27,562 bases of DNA from a virus: the IMG/VR virus record IMGVR_UViG_3300037187_000044, positions 1 through 27,562 of that record; one strand, given 5' to 3'. Position numbers and translations under genes: made by a program. This document shows positions 1-27,500 of this stretch, piece after piece. The notes beneath the pieces are model-generated. The model saw only the letters and a program-made list of their open reading frames with translations. It was not told the origin of the DNA and did no database searches. The stretch's first letter is position 1, and the number at the start of each line of letters is the position of its first letter.

Positions 1-1
1 G

Positions 2-7456: not shown

Positions 7457-7457
7457 A

Positions 7458-9590: not shown

Positions 9591-9593
9591 AAC

Positions 9594-10598: not shown

Positions 10599-10655
10599 AA
10601 CCCAGCGGGTGCCTTTCTGGGATCGGAGTCTAGCGCGATCCCAACGGCAGCGCAA
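10599..10655 (-). promoter_or_regulatory. Promoter with two operator-like inverted repeats (leftward cluster)
   Basis: Leftward -35 TTGCGC (10655-10650), 17-nt spacer, -10 TAGACT (10632-10627). The -10 box sits at the centre of a perfect inverted repeat GGGATCG-N10-CGATCCC (10619-10642), which contains two GATC sites. Directly downstream, 10599-10615, is a degenerate copy of the AAGCCA-N5-TGGCTT palindrome (AAGGCA-N5-TGGGTT read leftward). The same arrangement is found at 15477-15534. The promoter is back-to-back with the lysozyme gene. Confidence 0.65.
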
Positions 10656-10680
10656 GGGCCATTGGTAACAAAAAGGGAAA

Positions 10681-11121
10681 ATGATCACCTGCATAAAAGA
10701 CCAGCTCATCCGCGATGAAGGCGTGCGCCTGCAGAAATACCTGGACTCGCGCGGCTTCTGGACGATCGGCGTCGGCCACAACCTGGACGCGAATCCCCTG
10801 CCCTACGACATTTCGCAGGGCATCTCGATGGCGCTGGCCACGCAGATTGAAGGGGATGACATTGCGCGTGTGACCGCGCAGCTCTTTGGCGACCTACCCT
10901 GGCTGCGGTCGCTCGATGTGGTAAGGCAGGGCGTCTTCCAGAACATGGGCTTCAACATGGGCGAAGGCGGAGTACTCGAATTCCATCACGATCTGGCCGA
11001 CACCCAGGCCGGCAGGTATGTGCAGGCCGGCGCCGACATGAAGGCCTCGCTGTGGTACGGGCAGGTGGGCCCGCGGGCCCAAAGGCTCGTGCAGCAGATG
11101 ATCACGGGCGTCTGGCAATAG
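10681..11121 (+). CDS. Phage lysozyme, T4-type (GH24)
   Basis: 146 residues. It cleaves the glycan strands of peptidoglycan at lysis. The catalytic motif is plain: IRDEGVRLQKYLDSRGFWTIGVGH gives Glu13, Asp22 and Thr28, spaced exactly as Glu11-Asp20-Thr26 in T4 lysozyme. Then 'NMGFNMGEGGVLEFHHDL' corresponds to the conserved Asn-Met-x-Phe-Asn region and 'SLWYGQVGPRAQRLVQQMITGVW' to the C-terminal RA.R...M..G.W signature. No signal peptide, so release depends on the neighbouring holin-like gene. ATG 10681 follows AAGGGAAA. First gene of the lysis cassette. Confidence 0.9.
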   Translation: MITCIKDQLIRDEGVRLQKYLDSRGFWTIGVGHNLDANPLPYDISQGISMALATQIEGDDIARVTAQLFGDLPWLRSLDVVRQGVFQNMGFNMGEGGVLEFHHDLADTQAGRYVQAGADMKASLWYGQVGPRAQRLVQQMITGVWQ

Positions 11122-11178
11122 GGTTCCCCCTCTCTCTTCGGGTTCCGTGGTAGGAACTTTTCGAGAAGGGATCACTCC

Positions 11179-11463
11179 ATGAAGAAACTGATCGCACGAG
11201 CAAAAGCCTTTTGGGCGTCACTGCCTCACCAGGTGCAGGCCGCGGTTGTGGTATTCGCCACAGTGGCCGCCACCACGCTGAGTAAGGAATTGCAGGCCCT
11301 CACCTTTAGCACCCCGCATTTCACCTGGATCACTTTGCAGCATGACGTCTGGGCCTCCTGCGTGGCCGGCTTCATCGCGCTGCGCGCTTTCTACATGTTC
11401 CCCAACCGTAACGCTCCGGAGCAAGGGGCGATCGCGCCGCCGGCAGAGCTGGGTGGGAAATGA
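11179..11463 (+). CDS. Holin-like membrane protein
   Basis: 94 residues. Two hydrophobic segments are visible, about residues 18-36 and 55-74, with a Lys/Arg-rich N-terminus (MKKLIARAKAF) and a polar Pro/Gly tail. Size, two-span topology and placement directly after the lysozyme fit a holin that permeabilises the inner membrane at lysis. No sequence family was recognised, so the call rests on topology and context. It overlaps the next gene by ATGA. A AGAAGGGA ribosome-binding site precedes the ATG. Confidence 0.6.
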   Translation: MKKLIARAKAFWASLPHQVQAAVVVFATVAATTLSKELQALTFSTPHFTWITLQHDVWASCVAGFIALRAFYMFPNRNAPEQGAIAPPAELGGK

Positions 11464-12155
11464 AGACGGCTCTTTCGATTGCACTTATCGCCTTGCTCGC
11501 AGCGGCGACGGCGGGAATCCTGGTGGTGGTCCATGACCTCCACCGGGATCTCACCGACCTGCACACCGTCATCGATGAGACCGCCGTCACCGTGCGCACG
11601 GCCGGCGGCTCCATTCAAACGACGGGCAAGGCCGTGGGCGATGCGGTCACCGATATCGCCGACGCTGCGGAAAACTCCCAGCACGATATCCGCGACCTGG
11701 CGAACGGACTGACCGGCAGCATGGACCGGGTTGCCACCGACACCGCGCGCAATCTCGAAATCTTTGGCGGGACGCAAAACGAGATCCGGCAAATCATCCG
11801 CGACCCTCGCTTCAAAAAGCAGGTATTCGATGCGCTCGAAAACTCGAACGAGCTGCTGCAGCATGCTCAGCTCACGCTAACGACCGCGGACGGAACTCTC
11901 GGCAAGAGCCAGGACACGTTCGATGCCGCCACCGGAACCTTGCACCAGGCCTCGGCGCTCTTTGCCAATGCCGATCCTTTCGTCATGAACCTGGGGAAAA
12001 TTTCAGGCGACGCCTATACCACAGAGCATCGTTACTTCTTCCCCACGAAGCAGAAGATGTCGGTCGCCGGCTATTTGTGGAAGGGATTCGAAATCGGGAA
12101 AGAGGTTGTCTTGCCGGGCTCCGAGATCGGCTACTACCTGACCAACATGAAGTGA
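11460..12155 (+). CDS. Membrane-anchored helical protein (possible spanin-like function)
   Basis: 231 residues, coupled to the holin-like gene by ATGA. One N-terminal membrane span (about residues 4-24, ALSIALIALLAAATAGILVVV), then a long Thr/Asp/Ala-rich helical stretch (about 27-175) full of heptad-like repeats (TVIDETAVTVRTAGGSIQTT, 'TARNLEIFGGTQNEIRQI', 'ALENSNELLQHAQLTLTTAD'), then a compact end with YFFPTKQKMSVAGYLWKGFE. The topology is that of an inner-membrane spanin subunit reaching into the periplasm, and it sits where a spanin would. The length exceeds typical inner spanins and no outer lipoprotein partner is seen. Alternatively it is an MCE-tail-like or phage-envelope protein. Confidence 0.5.
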   Translation: MKTALSIALIALLAAATAGILVVVHDLHRDLTDLHTVIDETAVTVRTAGGSIQTTGKAVGDAVTDIADAAENSQHDIRDLANGLTGSMDRVATDTARNLEIFGGTQNEIRQIIRDPRFKKQVFDALENSNELLQHAQLTLTTADGTLGKSQDTFDAATGTLHQASALFANADPFVMNLGKISGDAYTTEHRYFFPTKQKMSVAGYLWKGFEIGKEVVLPGSEIGYYLTNMK

Positions 12156-12158
12156 GGA

Positions 12159-12206
12159 AACCGAGCCGCTGGCTTTTGGCGTAGACTTCGGATCGGAGGG
12201 GAATTC
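12159..12206 (+). promoter_or_regulatory. Candidate promoter with degenerate AAGCCA-N5-TGGCTT site
   Basis: A -10-like TAGACT (12182-12187) is followed by GGATCGGAGG, which supplies both a GATC and the GGAGG Shine-Dalgarno for ATG 12213. Just upstream, 12159-12175 reads AACCGA-N5-TGGCTT, one good and one poor half-site of the palindrome found elsewhere in the window, with the same GCCGC spacer as the 15.5-kb copy. No convincing -35 is seen. Confidence 0.35.
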
Positions 12207-12212
12207 AAAATC

Positions 12213-12590
12213 ATGAACAAATTTGAAAGCTGGCTTGAGAGAGCTGGCAAGGATTTCGAGAAAGGCCTCACCTTCGTGCTGCCTATTGCGGCCAGCTCGG
12301 GCGAAGTGGCTGTGGCGGCTTTCGCCCCGGCTCTGGGTCCGATGTTTAATTCCACCGTCAACGCCGTCGTGCTAGCCGAACAGAAGTACACCGCGCTCGG
12401 TAAGCAGACCGGAACCGGCGCATCGAAACTCGCGGACGTCGTCACGCTGATGGGTCCGGTGATTGCGCAGGGCTTGAAGGATGCAGGCCAAAGCTCGGAT
12501 GCCACGGCCGTGAACGGCTATGTGAGTTCCGTAGTTGCGGTGCTGAATGCGGCCCCGGCGCCGACGCCAGCGCCCGCAGCAGCCTCATAA
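12213..12590 (+). CDS. Small conserved phage protein, unknown function
   Basis: 125 residues. The N-terminus (MNKFESWLERAGKDFEKGL) is an amphipathic helix, followed by Ala/Val-rich helices (about 28-62 and 78-112) and a Pro-Ala tail. 'NAVVLAEQKYTALGKQTGTGASKLADVVTLMGPVIAQ' resembles small proteins often seen near the lysis or late modules of acidobacterial and related prophages, but I cannot name a domain. No signal peptide; the helices are only moderately hydrophobic. A strong GGAGG lies about 14 bases before the ATG. It follows the lysis cassette and ends 12 bases before a large hairpin. Confidence 0.55.
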   Translation: MNKFESWLERAGKDFEKGLTFVLPIAASSGEVAVAAFAPALGPMFNSTVNAVVLAEQKYTALGKQTGTGASKLADVVTLMGPVIAQGLKDAGQSSDATAVNGYVSSVVAVLNAAPAPTPAPAAAS

Positions 12591-12602
12591 CAAACTCAAC
12601 GC

Positions 12603-12654
12603 GCATGATGTGCATAAGATTCGTATGCACATCATGCCCCGCTTTTGGTGCGGG
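12603..12654 (+). repeat. Two adjacent hairpins between late genes
   Basis: A perfect 14-bp stem, GCATGATGTGCATA (12603-12616) paired with 12624-12637, encloses a 7-nt loop. It abuts a second hairpin CCCGC-N7-GCGGG (12638-12654). No U-tract follows, so this is not a standard intrinsic terminator. It may stabilise the 3' end of the upstream message or be a DNA operator or recombination site. It ends 15 bases before the next gene. Confidence 0.6.
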
Positions 12655-12668
12655 TGTAGGATTGCCTT

Positions 12669-13187
12669 ATGGCCAGCCCCGCCAAAGCTCTCGCCCCCGT
12701 CGCCCTTTCTCCCGCCGAGATTGAAGCTTTAGCTGCGGAGTACCGCGACCTGGATGCACAAATCGCGGCGATCGATCTCAAGGCCAACGAAGAGATACGT
12801 CCTCTGCGGACCCGTATCGACGAGGTCTGGGAGCTGCTGATTGCCCAGGTGCGGAAGTACGGTTCGGCGCATGCCGAGAAATCGAAGCTGCTCTACGGCG
12901 TGACGCTCGAAGTGATGGGCACGTTTGGCAGCTCCTCGAGTGCGGACGCCGCCGCAGTGGAAGCGTTTCGCCTGCTGTTGGTGAAAGCCAAGAAAGCGCG
13001 CCTGCTGAAACTCATCTTCGAAAAGACGGAACGCTGGGCGCTCACGGCAAAGGCCTCCGTCATCCTGCTGAAAGCTCATGCCGAAAAGCAGATCCCGAAT
13101 AAATTGTTTATCGCCTTCGCGCGCTGCTCGGTATCGAAGGATCGCACGCCCACGCTGGTGGTGCGCGAGAGAGTAAAGCCAGCCTAG
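12669..13187 (+). CDS. Gam-like host-nuclease inhibitor family protein (tentative)
   Basis: 172 residues. Residues 15-65 form a charged helix (LAAEYRDLDAQIAAIDLKANEEIRPLRTRIDEVWELLIAQV) followed by 'HAEKSKLLYGVTLEVMGTFG', a layout like Mu/bacteriophage Gam proteins: a long coiled coil, then a Lys-rich 'K...L.G.' beta segment. Gam binds DNA ends and shields them from host RecBCD. The remaining half (KKARLLKLIFEKTERWALTAKASVILL...) has no clear match, and a DNA-binding structural protein is an alternative. Last rightward gene before the terminator near 13.37 kb. Confidence 0.4.
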   Translation: MASPAKALAPVALSPAEIEALAAEYRDLDAQIAAIDLKANEEIRPLRTRIDEVWELLIAQVRKYGSAHAEKSKLLYGVTLEVMGTFGSSSSADAAAVEAFRLLLVKAKKARLLKLIFEKTERWALTAKASVILLKAHAEKQIPNKLFIAFARCSVSKDRTPTLVVRERVKPA

Positions 13188-13423
13188 CCGTCTTCGAGTG
13201 TTAAGCTAGAGAGGTCATGACGGGCAAACGCTCATCCGTCCAAGGTAGAAGCGAAGAACCCGTAGCGTGTCGATTTGAATCCATCCAAAGAGGTCGCGGC
13301 TATCACAGTCGTGTCATAATTTAGAGGCTTACCCTTGAAATCCCCACTCCAGCCCGGAACCCTAAAGGGTCCGGGCGATTTTTTGTTTTGAGTGGAGAGC
13401 GCGAACAAAGGGGCCTTCCTTCC
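13188..13423. other. Non-coding interval between convergent late and HU genes
   Basis: This 236-base stretch has no credible gene. It contains a TCATAAT box (13314-13320) without a matching -35 and, at 13352-13390, a terminator. A short transcript of about 60 nt starting just after the TCATAAT and ending at the terminator is conceivable but unsupported. No tRNA cloverleaf could be formed. Confidence 0.5.
13352..13390 (+). terminator. Intrinsic terminator after the lysis/late genes
   Basis: GCCCGG-A-ACCC-TAAA-GGGT-CCGGGC forms a strong GC-rich stem with a single bulged A, followed by GATTTTTTGTTTT on the plus strand. This would end rightward transcription from the late module before it enters the leftward HU gene. 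Confidence 0.85.
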
Positions 13424-13741
13424 CTAAGCGGCTTTCTTCGCGGCCGTCGGCGAGATCGCTTCCTTCACCGCCTTCGCGATGCGGAATTTCACCACCGTTC
13501 TCGCCGAGATCTTGAGCGCTTCGCCGGTCTGGGGATTGCGTCCCATGCGGGCGTTGCGGTGGGCTTTGACCAGGCGGCCAATGCCGGGCAACACGAAGAC
13601 GCCATTCTTCTTCGTCTCTTTGATGGCGACGGCGGCGAGCTCGTCGAGGAAAGTGTTCGCGATTTTCTTGTTGATGGGAGCGCCGAGTTCTTCGGCAAGG
13701 TAGGCGACTAGCTTGGTTTTGCTCATTGTGGCTGTGGGCAT
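13424..13741 (-). CDS. HU/IHF-family DNA-binding protein
   Basis: 105 residues. HU-type proteins bind and bend DNA as dimers. The full pattern is present: MSKTKLVAYLAEELGAPINKKIANTFLDELAAVAIKETKKNG (helical body), 'VFVLPGIGRLVKAHRNARMGRNPQTGEALKISARTVVKFRIAKAVKEAI' (beta arms with the GRNPQTGE signature) and an Ala/Lys tail. ATG 13741 is chosen because GGAGG lies six bases upstream; this adds five residues before the more usual MSKTK. It is transcribed leftward, divergent from the 13779 gene. A phage-coded HU could assist integration, packaging or chromatin control. Confidence 0.92.
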   Translation of the reverse strand: MPTATMSKTKLVAYLAEELGAPINKKIANTFLDELAAVAIKETKKNGVFVLPGIGRLVKAHRNARMGRNPQTGEALKISARTVVKFRIAKAVKEAISPTAAKKAA

Positions 13742-13778
13742 TTGTTCCTCCAGCGTGGATAATAGCGCAGTTGCACAA

Positions 13779-14063
13779 ATGAAGGTTCGATTTCAGTACG
13801 CGCCTCCCTATCCAGCCGCCAGATTCCGGGCGAGATTCCAGCTTCGATACGTGGAGTTCTGCTGCGAACGCATGGAGGCGGTCGTTACGGAGACCCGCGC
13901 CATTCAGTTCGGAGCCCCGATCCTCACCGACCGCAAGGAATGCGAGCTTGCCATTTACTACTGGAGCTGCTGGCCCGAGGGCCCCGCGCTCACTCGCCTG
14001 CCGCTCGACTTCTGTCCGTTCTGTGGCGAACCCATCGAACTCGAAGAGATAACAATCGGCTGA
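13779..14063 (+). CDS. Small Cys-rich conserved protein
   Basis: 94 residues from ATG 13779 (MKVRFQYAPPYPAARFRARF). Contains 'VEFCCERMEAVVTE', 'RKECELAIYYWSCWPEG' and a C-terminal 'CPFCGEPIEL' zinc-knuckle. Several Cys pairs suggest metal binding. The family is not named to my knowledge, but proteins of this look accompany acidobacterial prophages. A GATAAT box at 13758-13763 would start transcription about nine bases before the ATG, and no Shine-Dalgarno is visible, so the message may have almost no leader. Divergent from the HU gene. Confidence 0.6.
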   Translation: MKVRFQYAPPYPAARFRARFQLRYVEFCCERMEAVVTETRAIQFGAPILTDRKECELAIYYWSCWPEGPALTRLPLDFCPFCGEPIELEEITIG

Positions 14064-14079
14064 GCGTTTTGCACAGTTT

Positions 14080-14119
14080 CCACTTGGCCGCACAGGCCTG
14101 CGGGTGATAACGATCCCGC
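14080..14119 (+). promoter_or_regulatory. Promoter of the first tyrosine recombinase gene
   Basis: -35 TTGGCC (14084-14089), 16-nt spacer, -10 GATAAC (14106-14111), then eight bases (GATCCCGC) to ATG 14120, again consistent with a leaderless message. The -35 lies in CCACTTGGNNGCACAGGCC, a 19-base string shared with the promoter at 17552-17583. Confidence 0.55.
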
Positions 14120-15253
14120 ATGGCACAAAACGCAGCCGCCGGCTTCCAGTTCCCAGCTTCCCGAAAAACGCCTCACAATCCAGGGCTCGCGCTGGTGCTT
14201 CCGCGCCAAGCGCCGGCCACTGATTTCCAGCTCACCCCACCCATGCCTCGCAGAATCCCACGCCACACGCCGGCCGGTCCCGGCTCTCCTCCGGAGAAAC
14301 GGAAGCCGCGGCGCCAGCGCAAGCCTCCCGTCTCGCTCAGCGATGAGCAGCTCCTCGCTCTGTTGACTCGAGCGAAGGAACATCGGCAGCGCGATTACGT
14401 GATGATTCTGGTCACCTACTGGCACGGGCTGCGGGCAAGCGAAACCGTGGCCCTGAAAGAGAGCGATTTCAACCTGGACGATGGCACGGTGCAGATTGTT
14501 CGAGGCAAGGGCAGCGAGGGGGGCAGCCACACCCTGCAGGAGTTCCCCGACAACCCGCTTTTGAACGAAGCGGTGGTGGTGGCGGACTGGCTGGCGAATC
14601 GGGGGCAATTCGGGGTCAAAGGCGGTGCCAAACCGGGGCGTGTGCGGAATCTCGCACAGCAGCCAAAGTGGAAATTGAAGGGCGAGATCCTGGATGATCG
14701 AGTTCCTGGAAGTGGGACCGACCCTGCAAAAATGCAACAATCTACGAAGATTGTTACATTTTCACCTGACGGGCCCGAGAAATTGCCTCCGGGTGATGTC
14801 TGGGCTTGGCCGCCTGGCGAAAAACCAGAAACTTACCATTTTCCTCCCGCGTTTGAGGGAGCGCCCTGCGAAAAGCCAGCGGGTGGCTCCGAACCCCCAC
14901 CCGACCCCTCCGCCTCGCTCCTAGCCCCCTCAGCGGCTCCGGATACCCCATCAGAGCTGCTTTTCCCCATTTCCCGGGTCCAATTCTGGCGTATCGTCCA
15001 CGGCTATGCCCTCGCCGCCGGCATCCCCCGGCGGAAGTGCAAAACCCACATGCTCAAGCACACCATCGCCAAGCACCTGGTGCGGGCCGGGCATCCGCTG
15101 AACGAGATCCAGGAATGGATGGGCTGGTCATCGATCGAGACCATGAACTGGTACACCCGCGCCGACGAAGAAGAGCTGGGCACCCGGATTGGGGCTACCA
15201 TTCGAAGCAAGGGCGGCTTGCGCCAGGTCCAGCAGGGGAGTCTGTTCTCATGA
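14120..15253 (+). CDS. Tyrosine recombinase, catalytic domain with long insertion and Arg-to-Lys change
   Basis: 377 residues. Tyrosine recombinases cut and rejoin DNA at att or inversion sites. Visible residues: Arg105 in YWHGLRASE, Lys130 in VRGKGS, His310 and Lys313 in THMLKHT, Trp336 in WMGWSS, and nucleophile Tyr345 in NWYTR. The second catalytic arginine (HxxR) is Lys here. There is no N-terminal core-binding domain, only a basic Pro-rich tail of about 70 residues. Between about residues 172 and 278 a Pro/Gly-rich stretch interrupts the fold; without it, 'GVKGGAKPG' would join directly to 'SELLFPISRVQFWR'. That insertion holds a 34-bp inverted repeat. The start could be internal (MPRRIPRH, residue 42), but a promoter ends right at ATG 14120. 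Coupled to the next gene by ATGA. It could be an integrase, an inversion enzyme or an accessory partner of the second recombinase. Confidence 0.85.
   Translation: MAQNAAAGFQFPASRKTPHNPGLALVLPRQAPATDFQLTPPMPRRIPRHTPAGPGSPPEKRKPRRQRKPPVSLSDEQLLALLTRAKEHRQRDYVMILVTYWHGLRASETVALKESDFNLDDGTVQIVRGKGSEGGSHTLQEFPDNPLLNEAVVVADWLANRGQFGVKGGAKPGRVRNLAQQPKWKLKGEILDDRVPGSGTDPAKMQQSTKIVTFSPDGPEKLPPGDVWAWPPGEKPETYHFPPAFEGAPCEKPAGGSEPPPDPSASLLAPSAAPDTPSELLFPISRVQFWRIVHGYALAAGIPRRKCKTHMLKHTIAKHLVRAGHPLNEIQEWMGWSSIETMNWYTRADEEELGTRIGATIRSKGGLRQVQQGSLFS
14729..14762. repeat. 34-bp near-perfect inverted repeat inside the recombinase gene
   Basis: Arms of 15 bp with one mismatch (AAAATGCAACAATCT and its partner AGATTGTTACATTTT) flank a 4-bp centre (ACGA). 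The site is AT-rich in GC-rich surroundings and lies within the insertion of the recombinase gene. It could be a regulator binding site, a recombination crossover site or an RNA hairpin. Confidence 0.75.
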
Positions 15254-15441
15254 AGCTCTATTGCGTCACCGTCCAATCAGTTGACCCGGTGCCAATGGAT
15301 GACGGGTTGACCGTGAACATTCTGATGCCGGCCAACGATCCCGCGCACGCCCGGCGGCGGGTACACCGCTACTACGCGGGAAGAATTCAGGCGGTCCGGA
15401 AAATTGCGGAAGGGAGTATGTTCGCGAGTTTATTTCCATGA
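15250..15441 (+). CDS. Small protein coupled to the recombinase gene
   Basis: 63 residues (MKLYCVTVQSVDPVPMDDG...). The ATG overlaps the recombinase stop (ATGA), so it is co-translated. It has a beta-rich N-terminus and a basic helix (DPAHARRRVHRYYAGRIQAVRKI) that might touch DNA. A recombination directionality factor or other recombinase helper is an attractive guess from position alone; no family is recognised. Confidence 0.5.
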   Translation: MKLYCVTVQSVDPVPMDDGLTVNILMPANDPAHARRRVHRYYAGRIQAVRKIAEGSMFASLFP

Positions 15442-15476
15442 TGGAGAAACCCGATCGATCTTTTCCAAGAAATCTA

Positions 15477-15544
15477 TTGCGGTGCGGAAGGGATCGCGCT
15501 AAACTCCGATCCCAAGAAAGCCAGCCGCTGGTTTTCGGGAGGAG
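15477..15544 (+). promoter_or_regulatory. Promoter with paired inverted repeats and Shine-Dalgarno
   Basis: -35 TTGCGG (15477-15482), 17-nt spacer, -10 TAAACT (15500-15505). The perfect inverted repeat GGGATCG-N10-CGATCCC (15490-15513) is centred on the -10 box. Four bases later comes AAGCCA-N5-TGGTTT (15518-15534), a one-mismatch copy of the 17-bp palindrome, then GGGAGGAG (15537-15544) and the ATG at 15548. Almost the same element lies at 10599-10655 on the other strand. Confidence 0.7.
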
Positions 15545-15547
15545 AAC

Positions 15548-16088
15548 ATGATCGCGCAGGAAGACGACCCCGAGCTTCTGGAATGGCTGGCCACCGCTGA
15601 CACCGAGGGGGGCGCCTTCGTTTCCTCTCGCTCACGCGGGCCTGGTCGCCGACTTTGAAAACTATCCCATCTTGCGGCCGGTACTGGTCGCGATGCGCGC
15701 GAAGTATCCGCAGTACGAGCCCAGCGAGTACGAGCCCAGCGAGATTGCCGATCGCGGCATCACTCTGCATGACTTTCCCCAACAAGAGGCAGGCGTGAGC
15801 GAGCATCGGCTCAACGCGGAAAATCTGATCATCTCCTGGGTGGATCGCGGATTCGAGCCGCGCTGCGCGTCCGACCCGAAAACCCCTGACGGCGTCGACC
15901 TGGACATGTCGAAAGGCGCGGAGAGGACCTGCGCGCGAGCGCTGCCGTATCCGGCCAAGCGGTGCGGCTACTTCGTGGTGAACTGCGAAGACTGCGGCCT
16001 CTCCGCCTGCATCACCACAGCCGGACGCCGCGACGATCCGCGCTCGATCACTTTGGCCTGCAAGGAAAGGTTTTCGCATGAGAACTGA
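15548..16088 (+). pseudogene. Small phage protein interrupted by a G-run frameshift
   Basis: From ATG 15548 the frame reads MIAQEDDPELLEWLATADTEGG and then stops after 36 residues. The rest of the protein continues in another frame (APSFPLAHAGLVADFENYPILRPVLVAMRAKYPQ...) to 16088. The switch falls at a run of six G (15607-15612); five G would restore one protein of about 179 residues. The C-terminal part, RCGYFVVNCEDCGLSACITTAGRRDDPRS, has a C-x2-C motif typical of a conserved phage family. A 15-bp tandem duplication (15714-15743) gives YEPSEYEPSE. The promoter and Shine-Dalgarno are excellent, so this may be phase variation, a recent mutation or a sequencing error rather than an old pseudogene. 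Confidence 0.65.
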
Positions 16089-16296
16089 TTTTGAATACTC
16101 CCGAGAAACGGGAGAACTCCGATTCTTCGTGTACCCGGAGACCCAGGCGGAAGCGGCTATCTTTGCTGCCTTGCGAGATAAAGGGGTCCAGCCCGTACTG
16201 ATTGAGTCGCCTTCAGCCTCAGGCTTGCAGTTCAACCTCAAGCTGGCGCAGCCTTCGAAAGCGATTAAGGAAGGGCGATCGCGCCATCGTGGTTGA
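16078..16296 (+). CDS. Small hypothetical protein with truncated end
   Basis: 72 residues (MRTDFEYSRETGELRFFVYPETQ...), starting 11 bases inside the previous frame. It has a clear alpha/beta look through 'AAIFAALRDKGVQPVLIESPSASGLQFNLKL', then an Arg-rich tail. The tail begins where similarity to the 22840-23076 gene starts on the DNA level, so the original C-terminus may have been lost in a recombination. No family recognised. Confidence 0.5.
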   Translation: MRTDFEYSRETGELRFFVYPETQAEAAIFAALRDKGVQPVLIESPSASGLQFNLKLAQPSKAIKEGRSRHRG

Positions 16297-16316
16297 AGGT
16301 GCACAGTCCAACCATG
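16283..16316 (+). repeat. Fragment duplicated from the 22840-23076 gene
   Basis: Bases 16294-16316 are identical to the complement of 22948-22970 (23 bp), and similarity extends leftward to 16283 with one extra base (GCCATCGTGGTTGAAGG versus GCCATCGTAGTGAAGG). In the leftward gene this DNA encodes AIVVKVHSPTM; here the extra base breaks that frame. It looks like the leftover of a second copy of that gene. Confidence 0.7.
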
Positions 16317-16859
16317 AAGATGAGACCCAGCGAAATTATCTACTTCGGCGATTCGAAGATTTCTTCGGCCGAGCGCGACGTGCTACTGAGCGAGCCGGCC
16401 TGCGACCGCTATAAAACGAATTGGATCAAGCCGCGGATGAGCCGCCAGCGAGCCGAGTACGTGCGCCAGCTCCGGTGCGCGGAGAACCGGAGTTATCGCG
16501 TGGTGGCCTGCATCACGTCCTTGGAGTGGGGAGCGGATGCGAATTGGGAGCCACTCTCCAATCAACTCGCGGGAATGGCCCTGTGCCGCGCCCGCAGAAC
16601 TACTCGGCGAGAATGTGGAGGGCTATCCATGGCAGGCAAACGTGGCATGAGCGGTGGCAAGCTCTACCCGTGGATCGACGAGGAGTACGGCCCGGTCCAG
16701 CGGCATTGGATGTGGGAGCGGACCCATAGTGATCCGAATTCTAATCGTGAGCGCGAGCGCGCCGAGATCCTGCAGGCGGAACGGGAGCTGGATCAAGGGC
16801 TTGCAATACTTCCTAGAAATTTTCGTCGGTATGTCTCATCAACCTTTCCTTATGTGTGA
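16314..16859 (+). CDS. Hypothetical protein, possibly two genes in one frame
   Basis: 181 residues from ATG 16314 (MKMRPSEIIYFGDSKISSAER...). A start at 16293 is possible but lies in the duplicated fragment. The frame has an internal ATG at 16629 (MAGKRGMSGGKLYPWIDEEYG) preceded by GGAGGG about eight bases upstream; translation from there gives a 76-residue protein with a helical 'RERERAEILQAERELDQGL'. The first part (about 100 residues) has a basic stretch RMSRQRAEYVRQLRCAE. I cannot name a family for either part. The C-terminus overlaps the next gene slightly. Confidence 0.45.
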   Translation: MKMRPSEIIYFGDSKISSAERDVLLSEPACDRYKTNWIKPRMSRQRAEYVRQLRCAENRSYRVVACITSLEWGADANWEPLSNQLAGMALCRARRTTRRECGGLSMAGKRGMSGGKLYPWIDEEYGPVQRHWMWERTHSDPNSNRERERAEILQAERELDQGLAILPRNFRRYVSSTFPYV

Positions 16860-17154
16860 GCACATCAAAACCCCGAATGGTGGCGAGTTCATTATCTGCG
16901 GCCTTCGTTCGCCGGCGCGGCGCTGTGTTCACTGCGGCCTGCCCGGAGTGTTTCTCTGCGACTGGAAAGTAAAAGGCCGGCGCAGCGGAACCTGCGACCG
17001 CGCCATGTGCGCGAAGGACGTCCGCGAAGTGGCGCCCGGAAAACATCTTTGCCGCGAACACTCGCGCGCGTGGGACGATTGGCAGCGATTGCATAGCGAG
17101 CAGGCCGCCCGCATTCTCGTGCGGCGCCAGCCTGAGCAGATGAGCCTGCTCTGA
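16852..17154 (+). CDS. Small zinc-binding phage protein
   Basis: 100 residues from ATG 16852 (MCEHIKTPNGGEFIICG); an ATG at 16831 would add MSHQPFL. Cys/His pattern: C.H...NGG..I.C, then 'RRCVHCGLPGVFLCDWKV', 'GTCDRAMCAKDV' and 'KHLCREHSRAW'. This is a recognisable small phage family with two or three zinc-knuckle units ('RC..CG.PA..LCDW...TCD..LC..H'). Function unknown; probably protein or nucleic-acid binding. Ends three bases before the next ATG, in an operon with the ASCH-like gene. Confidence 0.65.
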   Translation: MCEHIKTPNGGEFIICGLRSPARRCVHCGLPGVFLCDWKVKGRRSGTCDRAMCAKDVREVAPGKHLCREHSRAWDDWQRLHSEQAARILVRRQPEQMSLL

Positions 17155-17157
17155 GCC

Positions 17158-17529
17158 ATGGGCCTCTACAACTTCAAGAAGCGCTTCGCTCCCTTCGTAC
17201 GGAATGGCACAAAGCGCCACACCATTCGGGCGAAGCGCCGCTATCCCGACAAGCCGGGCAACCCCGTGCATCTCTACTGCGGTCTCCGCACCAAACACAC
17301 GGAACTGCTCGGCCGGTCCACTTGCGTTAAGGTCGAAGACATCAGGGTCACGATAGATCGGCAGGTTTACATCGACGGCGTGCTCCTCTTTGACGATGAA
17401 AAAAATCAGCTCGCATTCCGCGATGGGTTCCGTTCGCGTGGCAGAGCGCGGGCTTTCGAGGAAATGATGGAGTTCTGGGAAGGCCGCCTGCCCTTCACCG
17501 GCGACATCATCCACTGGAAGAAGTTCTAA
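17158..17529 (+). CDS. ASCH-like (PUA-fold) small protein
   Basis: 123 residues. The start MGLYNFKKRFAPFVRNGTKRHTIRAKRRYPDKPGNPVHLYCGLR carries the ASCH signature (G-x-K-x-x-T-x-R, here GTKRHTIR) followed by a 'PG' turn and beta strands; the end LPFTGDIIHWKKF is typical of this phage family. ASCH domains resemble PUA domains and probably bind modified bases or RNA. It lies immediately upstream of the DNA methyltransferase gene, which fits a role in nucleic-acid modification, but this is inference. Confidence 0.68.
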   Translation: MGLYNFKKRFAPFVRNGTKRHTIRAKRRYPDKPGNPVHLYCGLRTKHTELLGRSTCVKVEDIRVTIDRQVYIDGVLLFDDEKNQLAFRDGFRSRGRARAFEEMMEFWEGRLPFTGDIIHWKKF

Positions 17530-17551
17530 ATTCTCAGGTTTTCCACTGAAT

Positions 17552-17583
17552 CCACTTGGATGCACAGGCCCGGTGTATATATA
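17552..17583 (+). promoter_or_regulatory. Promoter upstream of the methyltransferase gene
   Basis: -35 TTGGAT (17556-17561), 16-nt spacer, -10 TATATA (17578-17583) inside an AT-rich TATATATAAAA. The -35 is within CCACTTGGNNGCACAGGCC, shared with the promoter at 14080. A leader of about 100 bases would follow before GTG 17698. Confidence 0.6.
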
Positions 17584-17697
17584 AAACCCTCGATCGTCTT
17601 TCGGGGGTCCTATCGATCCGACGGGGGTAACCGATTGGCCAAGAACGACCTGACACCGTTGAAGCTGGTTTATCCTCATACGGACAGAGGAAAACCT

Positions 17698-18312
17698 GTG
17701 GAAGCTGTGTATAAGGGCCGCGCCCATGGTGGCACGCGGGAGTGTGATCCCTCGCGAAAGCCGCACGCCGGCCATCCGGAACTTGGCACGGCTTCGATCG
17801 AGTACGAAACGCCGCCGGAACTTTTCGATGTGCTCAACCGCGAATTCGGGTTCACCGTCGACGTCTGCGCGACCTCCGCCAACGCCAAATGCAAACGCTT
17901 TTTCACGGTGCGGGAAAACGGCTTGGCACAACGGTGGGCTGAGTCAGGTTCCGCCGTGACCTGTTGGATGAATCCCCCCTACGGCGACCAGGCCATTACC
18001 CGCTGGATGGCGAAAGCGCATGGCGAAGCTCTGGCTGGCGCCACCGTGGTTTGCCTCGTGCCGGCGCGCACGCATACCGCCTGGTTCCACACCGTCTGCG
18101 GGCAGGCCGAAGTGCGATTCCTGCGCGGCCGTCTTCGCTATGTCGGCACCGACGGCGAAGCGCCCTTTGCGCAGCTCGTCGTCATCCTTCGCCCGTCGCT
18201 CGACGGCAAAACGCTTGGCCGCCCCTGGGTAATGAAACCATGGGAGTGGCGCCCGCTGTCAAAGCAGCGCCTGCTGGATCTGGCAAGCCTCCCGGTAGCA
18301 AGCGGCCAATGA
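17698..18312 (+). CDS. Phage DNA N6-adenine methyltransferase (Dam-type)
   Basis: 204 residues from GTG 17698, chosen for its AGAGG Shine-Dalgarno (17686-17690) seven bases upstream; TTG 17635 is an alternative. It methylates adenine N6 using S-adenosylmethionine. The phage family pattern is clear: 'YETPPELFDVLNREFGFTVDVCA' (SAM-binding start), 'CKRFFTVRENGLAQRW', catalytic NPPY at residues 92-95 in CWMNPPYGDQAITRWMAKA, 'GATVVCLVPARTHTAWFH' and 'VRFLRGRLRYVG...APFAQLVVIL'. Members of this group often modify GATC, protecting phage DNA or changing gene expression; specificity here cannot be read from sequence. Coupled by ATGA to the next gene. Confidence 0.9.
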   Translation: MEAVYKGRAHGGTRECDPSRKPHAGHPELGTASIEYETPPELFDVLNREFGFTVDVCATSANAKCKRFFTVRENGLAQRWAESGSAVTCWMNPPYGDQAITRWMAKAHGEALAGATVVCLVPARTHTAWFHTVCGQAEVRFLRGRLRYVGTDGEAPFAQLVVILRPSLDGKTLGRPWVMKPWEWRPLSKQRLLDLASLPVASGQ

Positions 18313-18953
18313 AGCCGATGCCGGCAGGCGCGCGGCGTCTCGCTCAATCTCTAGTGGATCGTGTGCGGCACTACGAGCGGAATTGCCGCTGCCCGCAGTG
18401 CCATGGCGCCGAGAGCGGACCGCTTGCCTGCATCGAATGCGAATTCTGTGTGGCCAATCTGCGCAAGCTGCTGCTCGGCGAATTGACCACGAAGGCAGCG
18501 GGTGCGTTTTTCTCTTGCCTTGCGGAAACGGATCGCGCTAATCTTCTTTCCATGAAAACCGTCAAGGCAATTCGCAAGCCCAAACTCAAAGCCCACGCGA
18601 AGGTGAAGGCTAAAGCCAAGTTGAAGGCGAAAGCCAAAACGAAAGCCACGCCCCGCGCTCACGCTCACAAGCTGAAAAAGCCCGCGGCATCGGCCCGGCC
18701 GAAATCGACGCTGAGCGTTATCTCCGGAGGCCCCAGGAGCGGTGACAGCGATCGCGGATTCTATCTGCGCTTTGGCACCGAGAAAGATGGGCTGGGCCCG
18801 TCCCTCAAGGCAGCGGTGAAAGCGACCTCCGAGAAAGCCGGAGTGAGTATGAACGAATTCGCCGCCGCGGCCACGCTGTATTGGGTGGAGATGGGCGAGA
18901 AGGGCGAATTCCCTCCGTCGATCGTAGCGGAAAAGAAAGCCATCGCGGTCTAA
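18309..18953 (+). CDS. Cys-rich N-terminus fused to H1-like basic linker and helical C-terminus
   Basis: 214 residues if read from ATG 18309 (ATGA overlap with the methyltransferase). Part 1 (1-80): a zinc-binding-looking domain, 'ERNCRCPQCHGAESGPLACIECEFCVANL'. Part 2 (about 82-125): Lys/Ala-rich repeats (KPKLKAHAKVKAKAKLKAKA) like the tail of histone H1-like proteins. Part 3 (about 140-214): 'DRGFYLRFGTEKDGLG', 'LKAAVKATSEKAGVSMNEFAAAATLYWVE', resembling a ribbon-helix-helix DNA-binding unit. A separate promoter ends seven bases before the in-frame ATG 18552, so parts 2-3 (133 residues) may also be made alone. A DNA-binding or DNA-compacting role is inferred. Confidence 0.6.
   Translation: MKPMPAGARRLAQSLVDRVRHYERNCRCPQCHGAESGPLACIECEFCVANLRKLLLGELTTKAAGAFFSCLAETDRANLLSMKTVKAIRKPKLKAHAKVKAKAKLKAKAKTKATPRAHAHKLKKPAASARPKSTLSVISGGPRSGDSDRGFYLRFGTEKDGLGPSLKAAVKATSEKAGVSMNEFAAAATLYWVEMGEKGEFPPSIVAEKKAIAV
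18515..18551 (+). promoter_or_regulatory. Internal leaderless promoter
   Basis: -35 TTGCCT (18515-18520), 18-nt spacer ending in GGATCGCGC, -10 TAATCT (18539-18544), then seven bases to the in-frame ATG 18552. The GGATCGCGC immediately before the -10 is identical to that at the 10.6- and 15.5-kb promoters. It would produce a short form of the 18309-18953 protein. Confidence 0.55.
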
Positions 18954-19159: not shown

Positions 19160-19462
19160 TCATGCCGCCTGACGCTGCAGATGGTGCAGCTTGAAGAAGT
19201 CCACGTTGGTCATGGGTTGAGTAACACCCTGGGCGATCCATCCGAGCGGAGTCTTCCCTCCCTCGAAGGTAGGATGGTAGACCAGGATGATCGGCTCCTC
19301 GGGGGTGCCGGTATTCTCAAACTTGCAGCCGCCTTTCAGAATGGCCTCCGTGCTTTGTTTCAGTAGACTTTGCGCAAGCGGTTGGTCGTCGTTACTGTTG
19401 ACCAGGTCGATGATGGTGCGGTTCGGCAGTTCGAGATGGCCGCGATAAGCTTTCGGTTGCAT
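19160..19462 (-). CDS. Small protein of unknown function under the 17-bp palindrome
   Basis: 100 residues (MQPKAYRGHLELPNRTIID...). ATG 19462 has an ideal AGGAGG six bases upstream. The sequence looks alpha/beta: 'AYRGHLELPNRTIIDLVNSN', 'KFENTGTPEEPIILVYHPT', and a His/Gln-rich end. No family recognised. It is an isolated gene between the terminator at 19.0 kb and the long leftward operon, with its own promoter. A perfect AAGCCA-N5-TGGCTT palindrome lies in its leader, so it probably responds to the same regulator as the right-end array. Confidence 0.62.
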   Translation of the reverse strand: MQPKAYRGHLELPNRTIIDLVNSNDDQPLAQSLLKQSTEAILKGGCKFENTGTPEEPIILVYHPTFEGGKTPLGWIAQGVTQPMTNVDFFKLHHLQRQAA

Positions 19463-19489: not shown

Positions 19490-19530
19490 AAGCCACTGGC
19501 TGGCTTTACGCGCCCGCAGCCGACACTCTA
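19490..19530 (-). promoter_or_regulatory. Leader operator and -10 box for the 19160-19462 gene
   Basis: Leftward -10 TAGAGT (19530-19525) with a weak -35. Between it and the Shine-Dalgarno lies a perfect 17-bp palindrome AAGCCA-N5-TGGCTT (19490-19506). On RNA it could also form a 6-bp hairpin just ahead of the ribosome-binding site, so DNA or RNA control are both possible. The rest of 19531-19715 shows no convincing gene. Confidence 0.55.
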
Positions 19531-19994: not shown

Positions 19995-20781
19995 TTTTCG
20001 CTTTCTCTCGATAGGTGTGTTTGAGTTGGTTAGCCAGGCGAATCGCCTCTTTCAATTCCGGCGAATAGCGATAGTGGTAGTCATGGGCCTTCGCGAACGG
20101 GCGCAGTTCCATCTGTCGAACTGTGCAGCCGGTCGTTCCGTCTTTCCAGTAGACATATTGGTGTCGTGGGATCGGCCCTCGACGCGCCTGCCAGACGGCG
20201 CGGAGCGCTTCGATGCCCGCGAAGAAATCGCGGACGCGAATTGCCGTCCTCGCAATTACGGGCATAGGCTTGCCTCGGAGCGAACGGATTTGCAGGCCCC
20301 CGCTTCGATTGCCCAGCGCCTCATGACTGATCAGGCTGGCCGGATATCCCCAGGCGATCAGCCAGCGGAGTTTGTTGAGCGTATCCGCGGGGTCAATGTT
20401 AAGGTTCCGTGGCACGGTGTCGAGCGTTGGTCGGTAGGAGAGCACCTGCGCTTCCTTGCGGCGCCGCATGAAAAGTTTCCGGCCCTCATGGCCTCCCCAA
20501 ACCAGTCGACCGAGGGATGTCTTCCCCAGCCCGACTTGTTTTGCCACGGTTTTATATCCGATCCCGAGCTTCTGCATATCGAGCAGAAAGGAACGAACGC
20601 GATCGGTCGGCACAAGATCATTTGGGCCGAATAGCATCACATTGTTTGCGAGCTTGTCCTTGTAGAGCCGGTTCCCACGCCGGCAGCGCCAGCACCTGCA
20701 GCCGGCCAAGTAGCGCATCATGTGCCCGTGTGGTTTACCGCGTCCCAGCACTTTCGGAGAAGGTAGGTCTGGCGGCCTCAT
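19966..20781 (-). CDS. Helix-turn-helix protein with Cys-rich N-terminus
   Basis: 271 residues from ATG 20781 (ATGA overlap). The N-terminal part, GKPHGHMMRYLAGCRCWRCRRGN, matches the 'HGT..RY..GCRC..CR.AN' motif of phage and actinobacterial DNA-binding proteins, followed by 'LVPTDRVRSFLLDMQKLGIGYKTVAKQVGLGKTSLGRLVWG', a helix-turn-helix. A second half (about 150-271) has further helices: 'TLNKLRWLIAWGYPASLISHEALGN' may be another HTH-like unit, with a 'HQYVYWKDGTTGCTVRQMEL' stretch. Probably a transcriptional regulator of the phage or a DNA-binding accessory; target unknown. Confidence 0.62.
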   Translation of the reverse strand: MRPPDLPSPKVLGRGKPHGHMMRYLAGCRCWRCRRGNRLYKDKLANNVMLFGPNDLVPTDRVRSFLLDMQKLGIGYKTVAKQVGLGKTSLGRLVWGGHEGRKLFMRRRKEAQVLSYRPTLDTVPRNLNIDPADTLNKLRWLIAWGYPASLISHEALGNRSGGLQIRSLRGKPMPVIARTAIRVRDFFAGIEALRAVWQARRGPIPRHQYVYWKDGTTGCTVRQMELRPFAKAHDYHYRYSPELKEAIRLANQLKHTYREKAKNEKHNRRSA

Positions 20782-21155
20782 GCCGCGATCACAATCCCTT
20801 CCCATGGAGCTGGGTTCGGCACGTCGTAGAGAACCACGAAAGCGTGGATCACATTGGGAATATTCAGCGACGTTGTGAGGAACCACACTCCAGGCACCAC
20901 GCGCTGCGCGCCGAAGGCGACGAGCTCGCCTAGCGCATTCTGGTGCGGCCCGGTCTTCGAAATGGCAAACGGGACCGACAGCTCCGGAGCCAGCCACAGC
21001 GCCAGGCTGGCGCCGCCACAGACCAGATCCTCGCCGCGATAGCCGGCGACGTCGGCGACGTAACGCACGAAGAGCTGGCAGATGGGAATCGCGGGATCGC
21101 CGAACAGCTCCGCAGCGCCGATGCACCAATCCGAGACTTCGGTAAAGGTCTTCAA
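20778..21155 (-). CDS. Hypothetical protein with hydrophobic stretches
   Basis: 125 residues from TTG 21155, which overlaps the upstream stop as TTGA; an AAGGAGAGG lies further upstream in the preceding gene. The sequence KTFTEVSDWCIGAAELFGDPAIPICQLFVRYVADVAGY then 'GGASLALWLAPELSVPFAI' and 'GVWFLTTSLNIPNVIHAFVVLYD' is hydrophobic but Pro/Gly-broken, more like a beta-rich globular protein than a membrane protein. No family recognised. Coupled at both ends. Confidence 0.55.
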   Translation of the reverse strand: MKTFTEVSDWCIGAAELFGDPAIPICQLFVRYVADVAGYRGEDLVCGGASLALWLAPELSVPFAISKTGPHQNALGELVAFGAQRVVPGVWFLTTSLNIPNVIHAFVVLYDVPNPAPWEGIVIAA

Positions 21156-22172: not shown

Positions 22173-22481
22173 CTAGGCCGCCCTTTGGTTTGGCGGCTTA
22201 AGCCCCTGGGGCTGCCGGCGGTCAAAGCGTAGCGACCGTTGCGCCCGTATTTCGTCGCGAATGTTCTTGGCGGCTCGTCTGATTCCCAGAGCATCCATGG
22301 CGCGGCTCAACGTGTTGCGGTGCATTTGCAGGGCTCGCGCTGTATGGCAGAGATTACCGCCGGTTTCGCGCAGGTAGGCCAGAATCAACTGGCGTCGTAG
22401 TACGACTGTTCCTTCACTCCAAGTGATTCCCGCCGCAACCATCTTCGCGGCGCATTGTTCGATCAGCGTTGGTTCTTTCAT
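22173..22481 (-). CDS. Fis-type helix-turn-helix regulator
   Basis: 102 residues from ATG 22481 (MKEPTLIEQCAAKMV), with AAAGGGAAA upstream. The middle contains a Fis-family HTH: 'LRRQLILAYLRETGGNLCHTARALQMHRNTLSRAMDALGI', the pattern used by Fis and the C-terminal domains of NtrC-type regulators to bind DNA. No receiver or ATPase domain is present, so this is a stand-alone DNA-binding protein, perhaps a phage regulator. The tail is Arg-rich. Member of the leftward operon, followed two bases later by another gene. Confidence 0.78.
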   Translation of the reverse strand: MKEPTLIEQCAAKMVAAGITWSEGTVVLRRQLILAYLRETGGNLCHTARALQMHRNTLSRAMDALGIRRAAKNIRDEIRAQRSLRFDRRQPQGLKPPNQRAA

Positions 22482-24300: not shown

Positions 24301-24514
24301 GCTCGCCTTCCCTTCCGTATCTAAACCGTATCTAAAATGGCTCCGGTTCCATCGCTTCCGTTAGGATTGATAGGAACGGAATGCCCGTAAGTTGAAGGTG
24401 TGCGCGGGTAGACGGGCTATAATGAGTTGTTTCAACCATTTCCCGCACCCGCATAAACACTGCCTCTAAATCGGCACTTGCGTTCATATCTAAAATGTAG
24501 ATAATGGGATCGCG
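24301..24514. promoter_or_regulatory. Divergent control region between leftward operon and second recombinase
   Basis: Contains two tandem CCGTATCTAAA (24315-24325 and 24326-24336), and TATCTAAAATG occurs again at 24487-24497 within the palindrome ATCTA-N5-TAGAT (24488-24502). A second palindrome GTTG-N3-CAAC lies at 24426-24436, and a TATAAT at 24418-24423. The likely recombinase promoter is TTGCGT (24478-24483), 16-nt spacer, GATAAT (24500-24505), with ATG 24515 only nine bases beyond. Leftward -10 candidates are the TTTAGAT sequences of the tandem repeat, 15-30 bases before ATG 24300. The repeats could be regulator or Int/Xis arm sites. Confidence 0.5.
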
Positions 24515-25873
24515 ATGAACCGATCCCACGCCAAAACTGCCCGCCCTTCGCCCACTGTCTTCTCTTCCCTTTATGGCACGGTGCGCGTCTACACTCCCCG
24601 CCACATTCGCGGATGCCGTCTGAGCGATACCCGCGACAACCATTGCTCCTGCCCTAAGTGGCTGTACAAAAACGCGGGTGGCCTTCCTCCCGTGCAAGAG
24701 GCGGCCAAGACGCCCAGCTTCACTGAGGCCTGCGAGGTCGCGCAACGCTGGCTCCGGGGAATGGATCCGGAGATTCGCGCCGCGCGCGCACTGGTCACCC
24801 CTCCCGCCGACGCTTTCAGCGTCGAAGCCGCCCTTGAGCAATACATGGCGGTGCTCAAGCGGCGCCGGCTGAGCGAGGACTATGTGGGCGGCATCATCCG
24901 TCCCGTCTTTTGCCGCCGCAAGCCGCGGAAGTACAACCGCGGCCGCCGCGCTCTCAACGTGAGCCTGCTCGATTTTCTGGATCGCCGTTTCCCACGCGCC
25001 ATCGCCCTCAGGGAAGTGACTGGCACGCTGCTCGATGAGTGGGTCGATCACTGGCAGTCGAACGATCTGACGTCGAAGCAGTGGCGCATGCAGGCCACAG
25101 CTTTTTTCAAGTGGGCGATCAGCCGCGGAATGATCTCGGCGCTGCCCGTTTTCGATAAGGGCGAAAGCATTAAAGCGGGAAACCGTTGCGGCCACTTCAG
25201 CGAAGAGCAGTTCAATCGCATCCTTGCGGCGCTTCCCTTCTACAAGAGCCGCACCCGCGCGCTGCCTCCGAACTACGCCGAGCGCCTGCGCGCCTTCATG
25301 GACCTGGGCCGCTATGGTGGCATGGCGGTTTGCGATATCGTCCTGTTCCGCCCCAAGGAAAATCTGGACAGCAATAACGTCCTGACCTATCGCCGTCTGA
25401 AAATCAAAAAGACCATCCAGCTCGCTCAGGTTTTGCTCGAGCCTTCCGTGGCGCTGCGGCTGCGTTCGATCCCACTCGAACCGGGTTGCGAGGCCGATCA
25501 GCCGTTCCGCTTTCTCAAGCTCACTGAGGATCGAAGCCGCGGCATCTGGCGTGAGCGTTTTCAGAAATTGTGCGAGAAGGCGGGCATTACGGAAATCGAA
25601 ACCGAGATCGGAACCCGGCGCCGTCCGCATCCCCACATGCTGCGGGATACCTGCGCGATTGAGGCCATCGTTCGCGGCGTGCGGCTGGACAACGTAGCTA
25701 GGATGCTGGGGCATGCTTCCGATCAAATGACGCAAAAGGCATATCTGACTTGGACGCGGGCGCGCATGGATTCCTCTATCGAAGACCAGCGCTCGGTTCT
25801 AGCCCGCGTGCAGGTCCCGGTCCCGGCCGACGACGACGATGCCACCGACGGGCCCGGCCCGCTTGTTAACTAG
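24515..25873 (+). CDS. Tyrosine recombinase/integrase with altered first catalytic box
   Basis: 452 residues. N-terminus: 'RHIRGCRLSDTRDNHCSCPKWLY', a Cys-rich motif common in acidobacterial integrases, then a helical 'AKTPSFTEACEVAQRWLRGMD' arm-like part; a core-binding domain (about 110-230, 'FSVEAALEQYMAVLKRRRLSEDYV', 'VDHWQSNDLTSKQWRMQATAFFKWAISRGMI'); catalytic domain from about 240. Catalytic residues: His374 and Arg377 in HPHMLRDT, His400 in MLGHAS, nucleophile Tyr410 in KAYLTW. The first box reads RYGGMAVCD (266-274), where an Arg is expected after 'GL/GM' or two residues later; neither is Arg. Activity may therefore be reduced. The 3' end overlaps a leftward HTH gene. Probably the phage integrase because the HTH gene next to it is Xis-like. 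Confidence 0.88.
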   Translation: MNRSHAKTARPSPTVFSSLYGTVRVYTPRHIRGCRLSDTRDNHCSCPKWLYKNAGGLPPVQEAAKTPSFTEACEVAQRWLRGMDPEIRAARALVTPPADAFSVEAALEQYMAVLKRRRLSEDYVGGIIRPVFCRRKPRKYNRGRRALNVSLLDFLDRRFPRAIALREVTGTLLDEWVDHWQSNDLTSKQWRMQATAFFKWAISRGMISALPVFDKGESIKAGNRCGHFSEEQFNRILAALPFYKSRTRALPPNYAERLRAFMDLGRYGGMAVCDIVLFRPKENLDSNNVLTYRRLKIKKTIQLAQVLLEPSVALRLRSIPLEPGCEADQPFRFLKLTEDRSRGIWRERFQKLCEKAGITEIETEIGTRRRPHPHMLRDTCAIEAIVRGVRLDNVARMLGHASDQMTQKAYLTWTRARMDSSIEDQRSVLARVQVPVPADDDDATDGPGPLVN

Positions 25874-26098
25874 CCGGTCGCGCACTCGCTGGAATACGCT
25901 CTCGGGAATGCGCAGCACCGAATACCGGCGCTTATAGCCCACGCGCCGGTTTACCAGGCGCGTGGGCTGGCCGATCTTGAGAACACCTTCCTCATCCACA
26001 AACATGTTGCGCACCGTGTCGTCGCTTAGCTTCCACTGCTTCGCGATCTCCGGCACAGTGTAGTGGGGCTCGATTCTCTGCGTCTCTTCGCTCGCCAT
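25799..26098 (-). CDS. HTH DNA-binding protein (Xis/regulator candidate)
   Basis: 99 residues. MASEETQRIEPHYTVPEIAKQWKLSDDTVRNMFVDEEGVLKIGQP is a winged-helix/MerR-Xis-type HTH, followed by 'RYSVLRIPESVFQRVRDRL'. A close paralogue is encoded at 26822-27148. The last 75 bases overlap the convergent recombinase gene, so the two messages are antisense there and could limit each other. Small HTH proteins next to an integrase are often excisionases. Alternatively, one of the two paralogues is the phage repressor. Confidence 0.7.
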   Translation of the reverse strand: MASEETQRIEPHYTVPEIAKQWKLSDDTVRNMFVDEEGVLKIGQPTRLVNRRVGYKRRYSVLRIPESVFQRVRDRLVNKRAGPVGGIVVVGRDRDLHAG

Positions 26099-26821: not shown

Positions 26822-27148
26822 TTAGCTGGCGCGCATTTCTCGCGTATGCGAACGGCGCGCAAGGACACCGGAACTGGCCGCGCTCCCGGCACTCTGCACG
26901 GGGCGGGCTTTGATGGTCACGCGGTCGAGCACGCGCAGCGCTACCGACTCCGGGACCCGCACGGTGCAGATCCTGCCATTTTTCCCGGGAAAGGCCAGCA
27001 CGCCAGGCTCTTGGGAGAAAAGCCTCACGGCGGTGCGCTTGCTCAGGTTCCAGAATTTGGAGATGTCTTTGAGGGTGTAGTGGGGCTCGTCGTCTCCGAG
27101 GAGCGGCGCTTTCAGACTGGCTGGCTGTGGCTTTCTGTCACTTACCAT
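26822..27148 (-). CDS. HTH DNA-binding protein, paralogue of 25799-26098
   Basis: 108 residues. 'EPHYTLKDISKFWNLSKRTAVRLFSQEPGVLAFPGKNGRICTVRVPESVALRVLDRVTIK' lines up with the paralogue's HYTVPEIAKQWKLSDDTVRNMF...VLRIPESVFQRVRDRL, so both are one winged-HTH family. It lies first after the strongest promoter in the window (TTGACA-17-TAGATT) and next to the operator-like array, so it is the best candidate for the regulator that binds AAGCCA-N5-TGGCTT; this is inference only. The tail is basic (LARRSHTREMRAS). AAAGG lies ten bases before the ATG. Confidence 0.7.
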   Translation of the reverse strand: MVSDRKPQPASLKAPLLGDDEPHYTLKDISKFWNLSKRTAVRLFSQEPGVLAFPGKNGRICTVRVPESVALRVLDRVTIKARPVQSAGSAASSGVLARRSHTREMRAS

Positions 27149-27199: not shown

Positions 27200-27228
27200 A
27201 ATCTAGTCTCTAGCGTGGTTCATGTCAA
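27200..27228 (-). promoter_or_regulatory. Consensus leftward promoter for the HTH gene
   Basis: -35 TTGACA (27228-27223) is a perfect consensus, the spacer is 17 nt and the -10 is TAGATT (27205-27200). The start would be near 27193, giving a leader of about 45 bases that contains the palindrome CTTTCGAAAG. This is the best sigma-70-type promoter seen in the window. Confidence 0.8.
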
Positions 27229-27360
27229 TAGGGAAATTCAACCAGTTTGGCGCAGTTTGTAGCTTCGGCGTGGAAATGCTGTGCAGACCTGTGCATTTCT
27301 GTCGGGATCGGGCACCGATCCCTCTCATATAACAAGGCTTGGCCGTGGACCGCTCCGGAC

Positions 27361-27500
27361 AAGCCAGCGGTTGGCTTATGGCGCATCTCGGCTCCCTTTC
27401 TGACTCTATAGCCAGCCAGTGGCTTAGCGCGTTGAATTGGCCCGAAAAGCCTGCCAGTGGCTTGATTCAGCCCGATAGGGATTAAGCCAGTGGGTGGCTT
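27361..27500. repeat. Four-copy array of a 17-bp palindrome (operator-like)
   Basis: Each copy is 6-5-6: AAGCCA-N5-TGGCTT at 27361-27377 (exact), 27409-27425 (one mismatch), 27447-27463 (one mismatch) and 27484-27500 (exact), with start-to-start distances of 48, 38 and 37 bp. Copies two and three share the spacer GCCAG. Other copies lie in leaders near 10.6, 12.2, 15.5 and 19.5 kb. Most likely binding sites for a dimeric regulator. Confidence 0.78.

Follow-up and report, generated by a model that had tools for sequence, protein, structure and literature searches.

A 17-bp palindrome dispersed over a phage genome is probably the operator of a phage-encoded regulator

Introduction

Dispersed operators are an established principle of gene control in phages. 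In SPbeta, one conserved element, SPBRE, is found at about ten promoters and is bound by the master repressor MrpR, whose binding peaks lie inside the prophage only; it had been put forward from sequence as a repressor site before the protein was known (PMC10516654). The C1 operators of P1 are 17-bp, asymmetric and widely dispersed, and repress lytic genes including those for replication (PMC8546580). In mycobacteriophage L5, a monomer binds asymmetric 13-bp stoperators whose orientation follows transcription (PMC9283540). In the SAS/ESAS system of cluster K mycobacteriophages, two linked repeat types lie near gene starts: a 13-bp repeat that overlaps the SD is preceded by the ESAS, which consist of paired inverted arms of 17 bp, and for these 17-bp repeats RNA hairpins were not supported and protein sites were proposed (PMC3203893).

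The palindrome AAGCCA-N5-TGGCTT was analyzed here in a linear IMG/VR virus fragment of 27,562 bases from an uncultured phage (hereafter the window, meaning the whole stretch), which lacks the DNA to the right of a terminal palindrome array. The window resembles SPbeta in repeating one element at several promoters of a single phage, P1 in the dispersal of 17-bp sites over the genome, and L5 in having many genome-wide sites in promoters and short intergenic gaps. The likeness to L5, which had been put forward when the motif was noticed, fails on two defining features, an asymmetric 13-bp site and an orientation tied to transcription, whereas the window sites are palindromic and of mixed orientation. 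SPBRE and the C1 operators are closer, with differences of their own: P1 operators are asymmetric, whereas those of the window are palindromic and include an array of four, and MrpR has a tyrosine-recombinase fold, whereas the window protein of that kind (14120-15253) has no homologue in a distant relative carrying the motif, G411. With SAS/ESAS the window shares two repeat types paired near gene starts; unlike there, its 17-bp unit is itself a palindrome, and its second motif flanks the -10 box. The composite promoter with this GATC-flanked -10 box, and the lineage itself, appear to be new. How genes are controlled in phages of the Acidobacteria, which are abundant in soil, is poorly known.

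Results and Discussion

Rescanning the window confirmed all palindrome coordinates of the original prediction. Three exact copies were counted against 0 expected from dinucleotide shuffles, seven copies with up to one mismatch against 0.1 expected, and nine with up to two against 1.2. Three mismatches brought no gain over chance (18 copies versus 12.9 expected, not significant). In a blind test of all 6-bp gapped palindromes in the window, AAGCCA-N5 was the most enriched, with 7 copies against 0.16 expected. Although the generous gene map used leaves just 9.3% of the window non-coding, eight of the nine copies having no more than two mismatches fall there. The claim that sites always lie between genes was thus slightly wrong, since a good site with one mismatch, 14873-14889 (minus strand), falls within the tyrosine-recombinase ORF 14120-15253. 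This site had been overlooked, as had a degenerate one with three mismatches (18492-18508, plus strand), also inside an ORF; that ORF overlaps the next promoter, GGATCGCGC-TAATCT, and the site stands upstream of this promoter of the 18552 gene.

Tail and lysis-type genes occupy the left of the window, followed by the tyrosine recombinase 14120-15253, a Dam-family methylase and a block of small genes, most of them leftward, including one for a Fis-like HTH protein; further right come a second integrase (24515-25873) and two small HTH paralogues, with the array upstream of them. The array comprises AAGCCAACCGCTGGCTT (27361-27377, minus strand, exact), TAGCCAGCCAGTGGCTT (27409-27425, plus strand, one mismatch), AAGCCTGCCAGTGGCTT (27447-27463, plus strand, one mismatch) and AAGCCACCCACTGGCTT (27484-27500, minus strand, exact), the last followed by a GGGATCG half-site at 27504. 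The 5-bp spacer originally described is present in all four copies; exactness holds for those at 27361 and 27484. The first gene downstream of the array, 26822-27148, encodes one of the HTH proteins, and the predicted promoter of its operon is TTGACA-17-TAGATT (27200-27228, minus strand). A GATC inverted repeat, GGATCGGGCACCGATCC (27305-27321), lies between array and gene.

The remaining copies, at 10599, 12159, 15518 and 19490, had been placed next to a -10 box or Shine-Dalgarno, and this is true of each; the copy at 19490 is exact, that at 15518 has one mismatch, and the degenerate ones at 10599 and 12159 have two each. Gene 19160-19462 has the exact palindrome (19490-19506, minus strand) in its leader. 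The copy at 15518-15534 (plus strand) is likewise in a leader, and beside it lies a composite promoter, TTGCGG-17-TAAACT (15477-15505, plus strand), whose -10 box is enclosed by GGATCG and CGATCC (inverted repeat 15491-15512). A similar promoter, TTGCGC-17-TAGACT (10627-10655, minus strand; inverted repeat 10620-10641 around the -10 box), accompanies the palindrome at 10599-10615 (minus strand), which directly precedes the start codon of the 10335-10598 gene. The palindrome at 12159-12175 (plus strand) covers the -35 region of the promoter of the 12213 gene, which has the -10 box TAGACT. Single palindromes are thus found either about 20 bp downstream of the -10 box or over the -35.

Five promoters from three phages could be aligned as TTGC-N19-TARACT, with CGATCC within two bases and the palindrome 3-7 bases further on. 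In four of the five, GGATCG directly precedes the -10 box, which consequently sits inside an inverted repeat. GGATCG-N5..10-CGATCC occurs four times in the window (at 10620, 15491, 24507 and 27305) against a shuffled mean of 0.05; the repeat at 24507-24526 contains the start codon of the integrase and has no palindrome. In G411, a GATC-flanked -10 box at 58296 has a degenerate AAGCCAGCCGCCGGC copy upstream. This repeat, which flanks the -10 box in most of the promoters concerned, has the look of a second operator.

Since several palindromes occupy short leaders near start codons, they could be hairpins of mRNA leaders that control translation close to the ribosome-binding site. Over 20 sites, however, covariation of pairing arm positions did not exceed that in shuffles, mismatches being left uncompensated, and neither the array nor the copies over -35 regions are in leaders. 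Hairpins of this kind are largely refuted and highly improbable, and the palindrome is accordingly read as a DNA site.

Conservation was assessed in related contigs. G003 (38.9 kb) is collinear with window positions 1-18312 and ends before the HTH and array region. Its sites at 7932, 6180, 2723 and 3231 are orthologous to those at 10599, 12159, 15518 and 14873, respectively, the last within the orthologous recombinase gene, and at 6180 the palindrome overlies the -35 of a TAGACT promoter as it does at 12159. Intergenic regions of G003 (L070) also show frequent GCCAATTGCC or TTAGCCAATGGCTAA-like repeats, which were not noticed in the window. The more distant G411 (60.3 kb) carries 15 sites with the 5-bp spacer and up to two mismatches, versus 1 in the control, and five sites of a version with a 4-bp spacer and up to one mismatch, versus 0. 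Orthologues of the window sites at 15518 and 18492 are found there at 51191 and 34595, and a replication-initiation-O-like gene starting at 22733 is closely preceded by a 4-bp-spacer site (22699). Conservation of the sites in related phages, named at the outset as a check, was therefore seen at orthologous promoters of both contigs. With a matrix trained on nothing but eight window sites, five loci in G003 and 11 in G411 scored 15 bits or above; shuffles had 0-2, and no locus scored this high in G413, L106, L118 or L119, four relatives that lack the motif.

An array of four copies is also present in G411, one with a 4-bp spacer (19772) and three with 5 bp (19809, 19845 and 19869, two mismatches each), with a homologue of the window's HTH paralogues starting about 300 bp away. 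To the right of the array lies an IS1595-family transposase gene (20103-21029; L126 103-1029), and elsewhere G411 has a cluster of 23 tRNA genes (L126 18998-19901, L127 136-2064).

Blind scans of IMG/VR with the exact palindrome AAGCCAGCNGCTGGCTT gave five hits, of which one was a true relative, L013 (5.4 kb), independently retrieved through tail-protein homology; the other four look like chance matches in unrelated contigs. With the promoter pattern, three hits included two true relatives, G003 and G411, and a match in contig L136, inside a gene, was due to chance. In exact form, GATCGCGCTARACTNCGATC was found across all of IMG/VR in G003 only, a search from which the window's own records may be left out. 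A scan of IMG/VR with the integrase found no relative, and neither the HTH protein nor the Fis-like protein nor the promoter had a match among cultured phages.

Since the HTH and tail proteins have homologues in Acidobacteriota, the host is probably an Acidobacterium. In eight genomes of this phylum the palindrome, which was to be compared between phage and host, was about as frequent as its reversed control, so that the motif counts as phage-specific and a host-wide repeat was rejected. The promoter pattern GATCGCGCTARACTNCGATC was matched a single time across 396 Acidobacteriota genomes, at a site with one mismatch, and no palindrome arrays were found beside HTH homologues in genomes of the host phylum.

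These results give good support, on four counts, to a phage-wide operator regulon as originally predicted: conservation at orthologous promoters, the conserved array, the background level in the host phylum and the lack of RNA covariation. The palindrome is probably the operator of a phage-encoded regulator, itself probably dimeric and most likely a repressor that silences a set of promoters; counting against this are the good site inside the recombinase gene, the lack of arrays beside HTH homologues of the host phylum, the degenerate array copies of G411 and the frequent 4-bp spacers in that contig. The four-copy cluster beside a candidate regulator gene, the single promoter copies and their conservation together point most likely to a phage-wide switch through which a single phage protein governs many genes simultaneously. 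Protein binding and repression at the palindromes, and the immunity of the original prediction, are what we infer. The regulator would bind the array beside the operon of the small excisionase-like HTH proteins as its master control region, and at single sites over the -35 or about 20 bp past the -10 box, shortly beyond the start, the bound protein would block RNA polymerase at initiation or early elongation. The regulatory switch of the lineage becomes directly testable now that its probable operator and control array are defined and three proteins are named as candidates, and the palindrome and promoter pattern provide a sequence signature by which related phages can be recognised.

None of the proteins scanned was recognisable as CI, LexA or another classical repressor. 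As the source of the regulator, the excisionase-like HTH pair is preferred, since it adjoins the array in two phages and co-occurs with the motif. The G411 array-side HTH protein is 53% identical over 68 aa to the window protein 25799-26098 (minus strand) and 34% identical to 26822-27148 (minus strand), and no such protein was found in the longer motif-less relatives G410, G413, G414, G415 and G416, a co-occurrence of the kind that had been proposed as a check. The 26822-27148 protein matched no Pfam or NCBIfam family, and the pair passes no family cut-off. In the excisionase family TIGR01764 the window HTHs had no hit, and the G411 homologue scored 14.6 bits against a cut-off of 28.8. A structural model of 25799-26098 was weak, with an HTH plus wing (pLDDT 64); it had no match at E below 0.001 in a fold search and was set aside as too weak for identifying the fold. 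One of the two HTH proteins is the regulator with a likelihood a little short of even.

That attribution, part of the original prediction, has position and co-occurrence on its side and a serious rival in a Fis-family protein (22173-22481, minus strand), conserved in G411, which might activate as well as repress. Its HTH_8 Pfam match is at 2e-8, and G411 has an almost identical recognition helix, MHRNTLSRA. In its favour, too, the 17-bp palindromes recognised by NtrC-type HTH_8 dimers have arms of 6 bp and a spacer of 5 bp. Its gene is, however, about 5 kb from the array, and homologues, though with different helices, occur in the motif-less G413 and G415, where no enrichment of the motif was seen. 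The Fis-family protein is a real competitor, though less likely than the HTH pair. The recombinase 14120-15253 was also considered, since MrpR of SPbeta is a recombinase-fold repressor, and is an unlikely MrpR-like regulator given its absence from G411, an argument that covers this protein but not the phage integrases. Together with G003 2849-4114, this protein is a tyrosine recombinase with a long variable insertion; in both, the arginine position of HxxR appears as a lysine (HMLKH), so catalysis may be impaired.

Because an HTH gene adjoins the integrase in both phages, and the G411 protein has a weak 'excisionase family' NCBIfam hit, the sites might instead be arm-type or excisionase (Cox-like) sites, in which case the array would belong to attP and the HTH protein would act mainly as a recombination directionality factor. 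The distance of 1.5 kb between array and window integrase, and the single copies at promoters of unrelated genes, make this improbable; the protein may have a dual role like that of P2 Cox. Still less credence is given to a plasmid-like prophage in which the array would be a partition site (centromere) or iterons and the single copies dispersed centromere sites, of the type known for phage N15. The array does adjoin a gene for a small DNA-binding protein, and the second HTH has a weak ParB-like PHROG hit (E 0.007); yet the proteins scanned yielded no detected parA-like gene, tyrosine integrases are encoded by the phages, and in three phages the single sites keep fixed positions relative to promoters.

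A more elaborate form of the operator reading is control in two layers in a temperate lineage, probably of Acidobacteriota, with a non-CI, excisionase-like HTH protein acting on the palindromes and array and another factor on the inverted repeat that places GATC on either side of the -10 box, a repeat possibly modified by the Dam-type methylase of the phage. It is offered tentatively, as a doubtful extension. Against its methylase part, no Dam homologue was found among the G411 tblastn matches listed, and, with GATC also near Markov expectation genome-wide, Dam methylation is weak as a general mechanism. The window does encode a phage Dam-family N6-adenine methylase next to GATC-containing promoters (17560-18312), with a homologue in G003. 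The small protein 18552-18953, driven by one of the GATC promoters, has a Lys/Ala-rich N-terminus reminiscent of histone H1.
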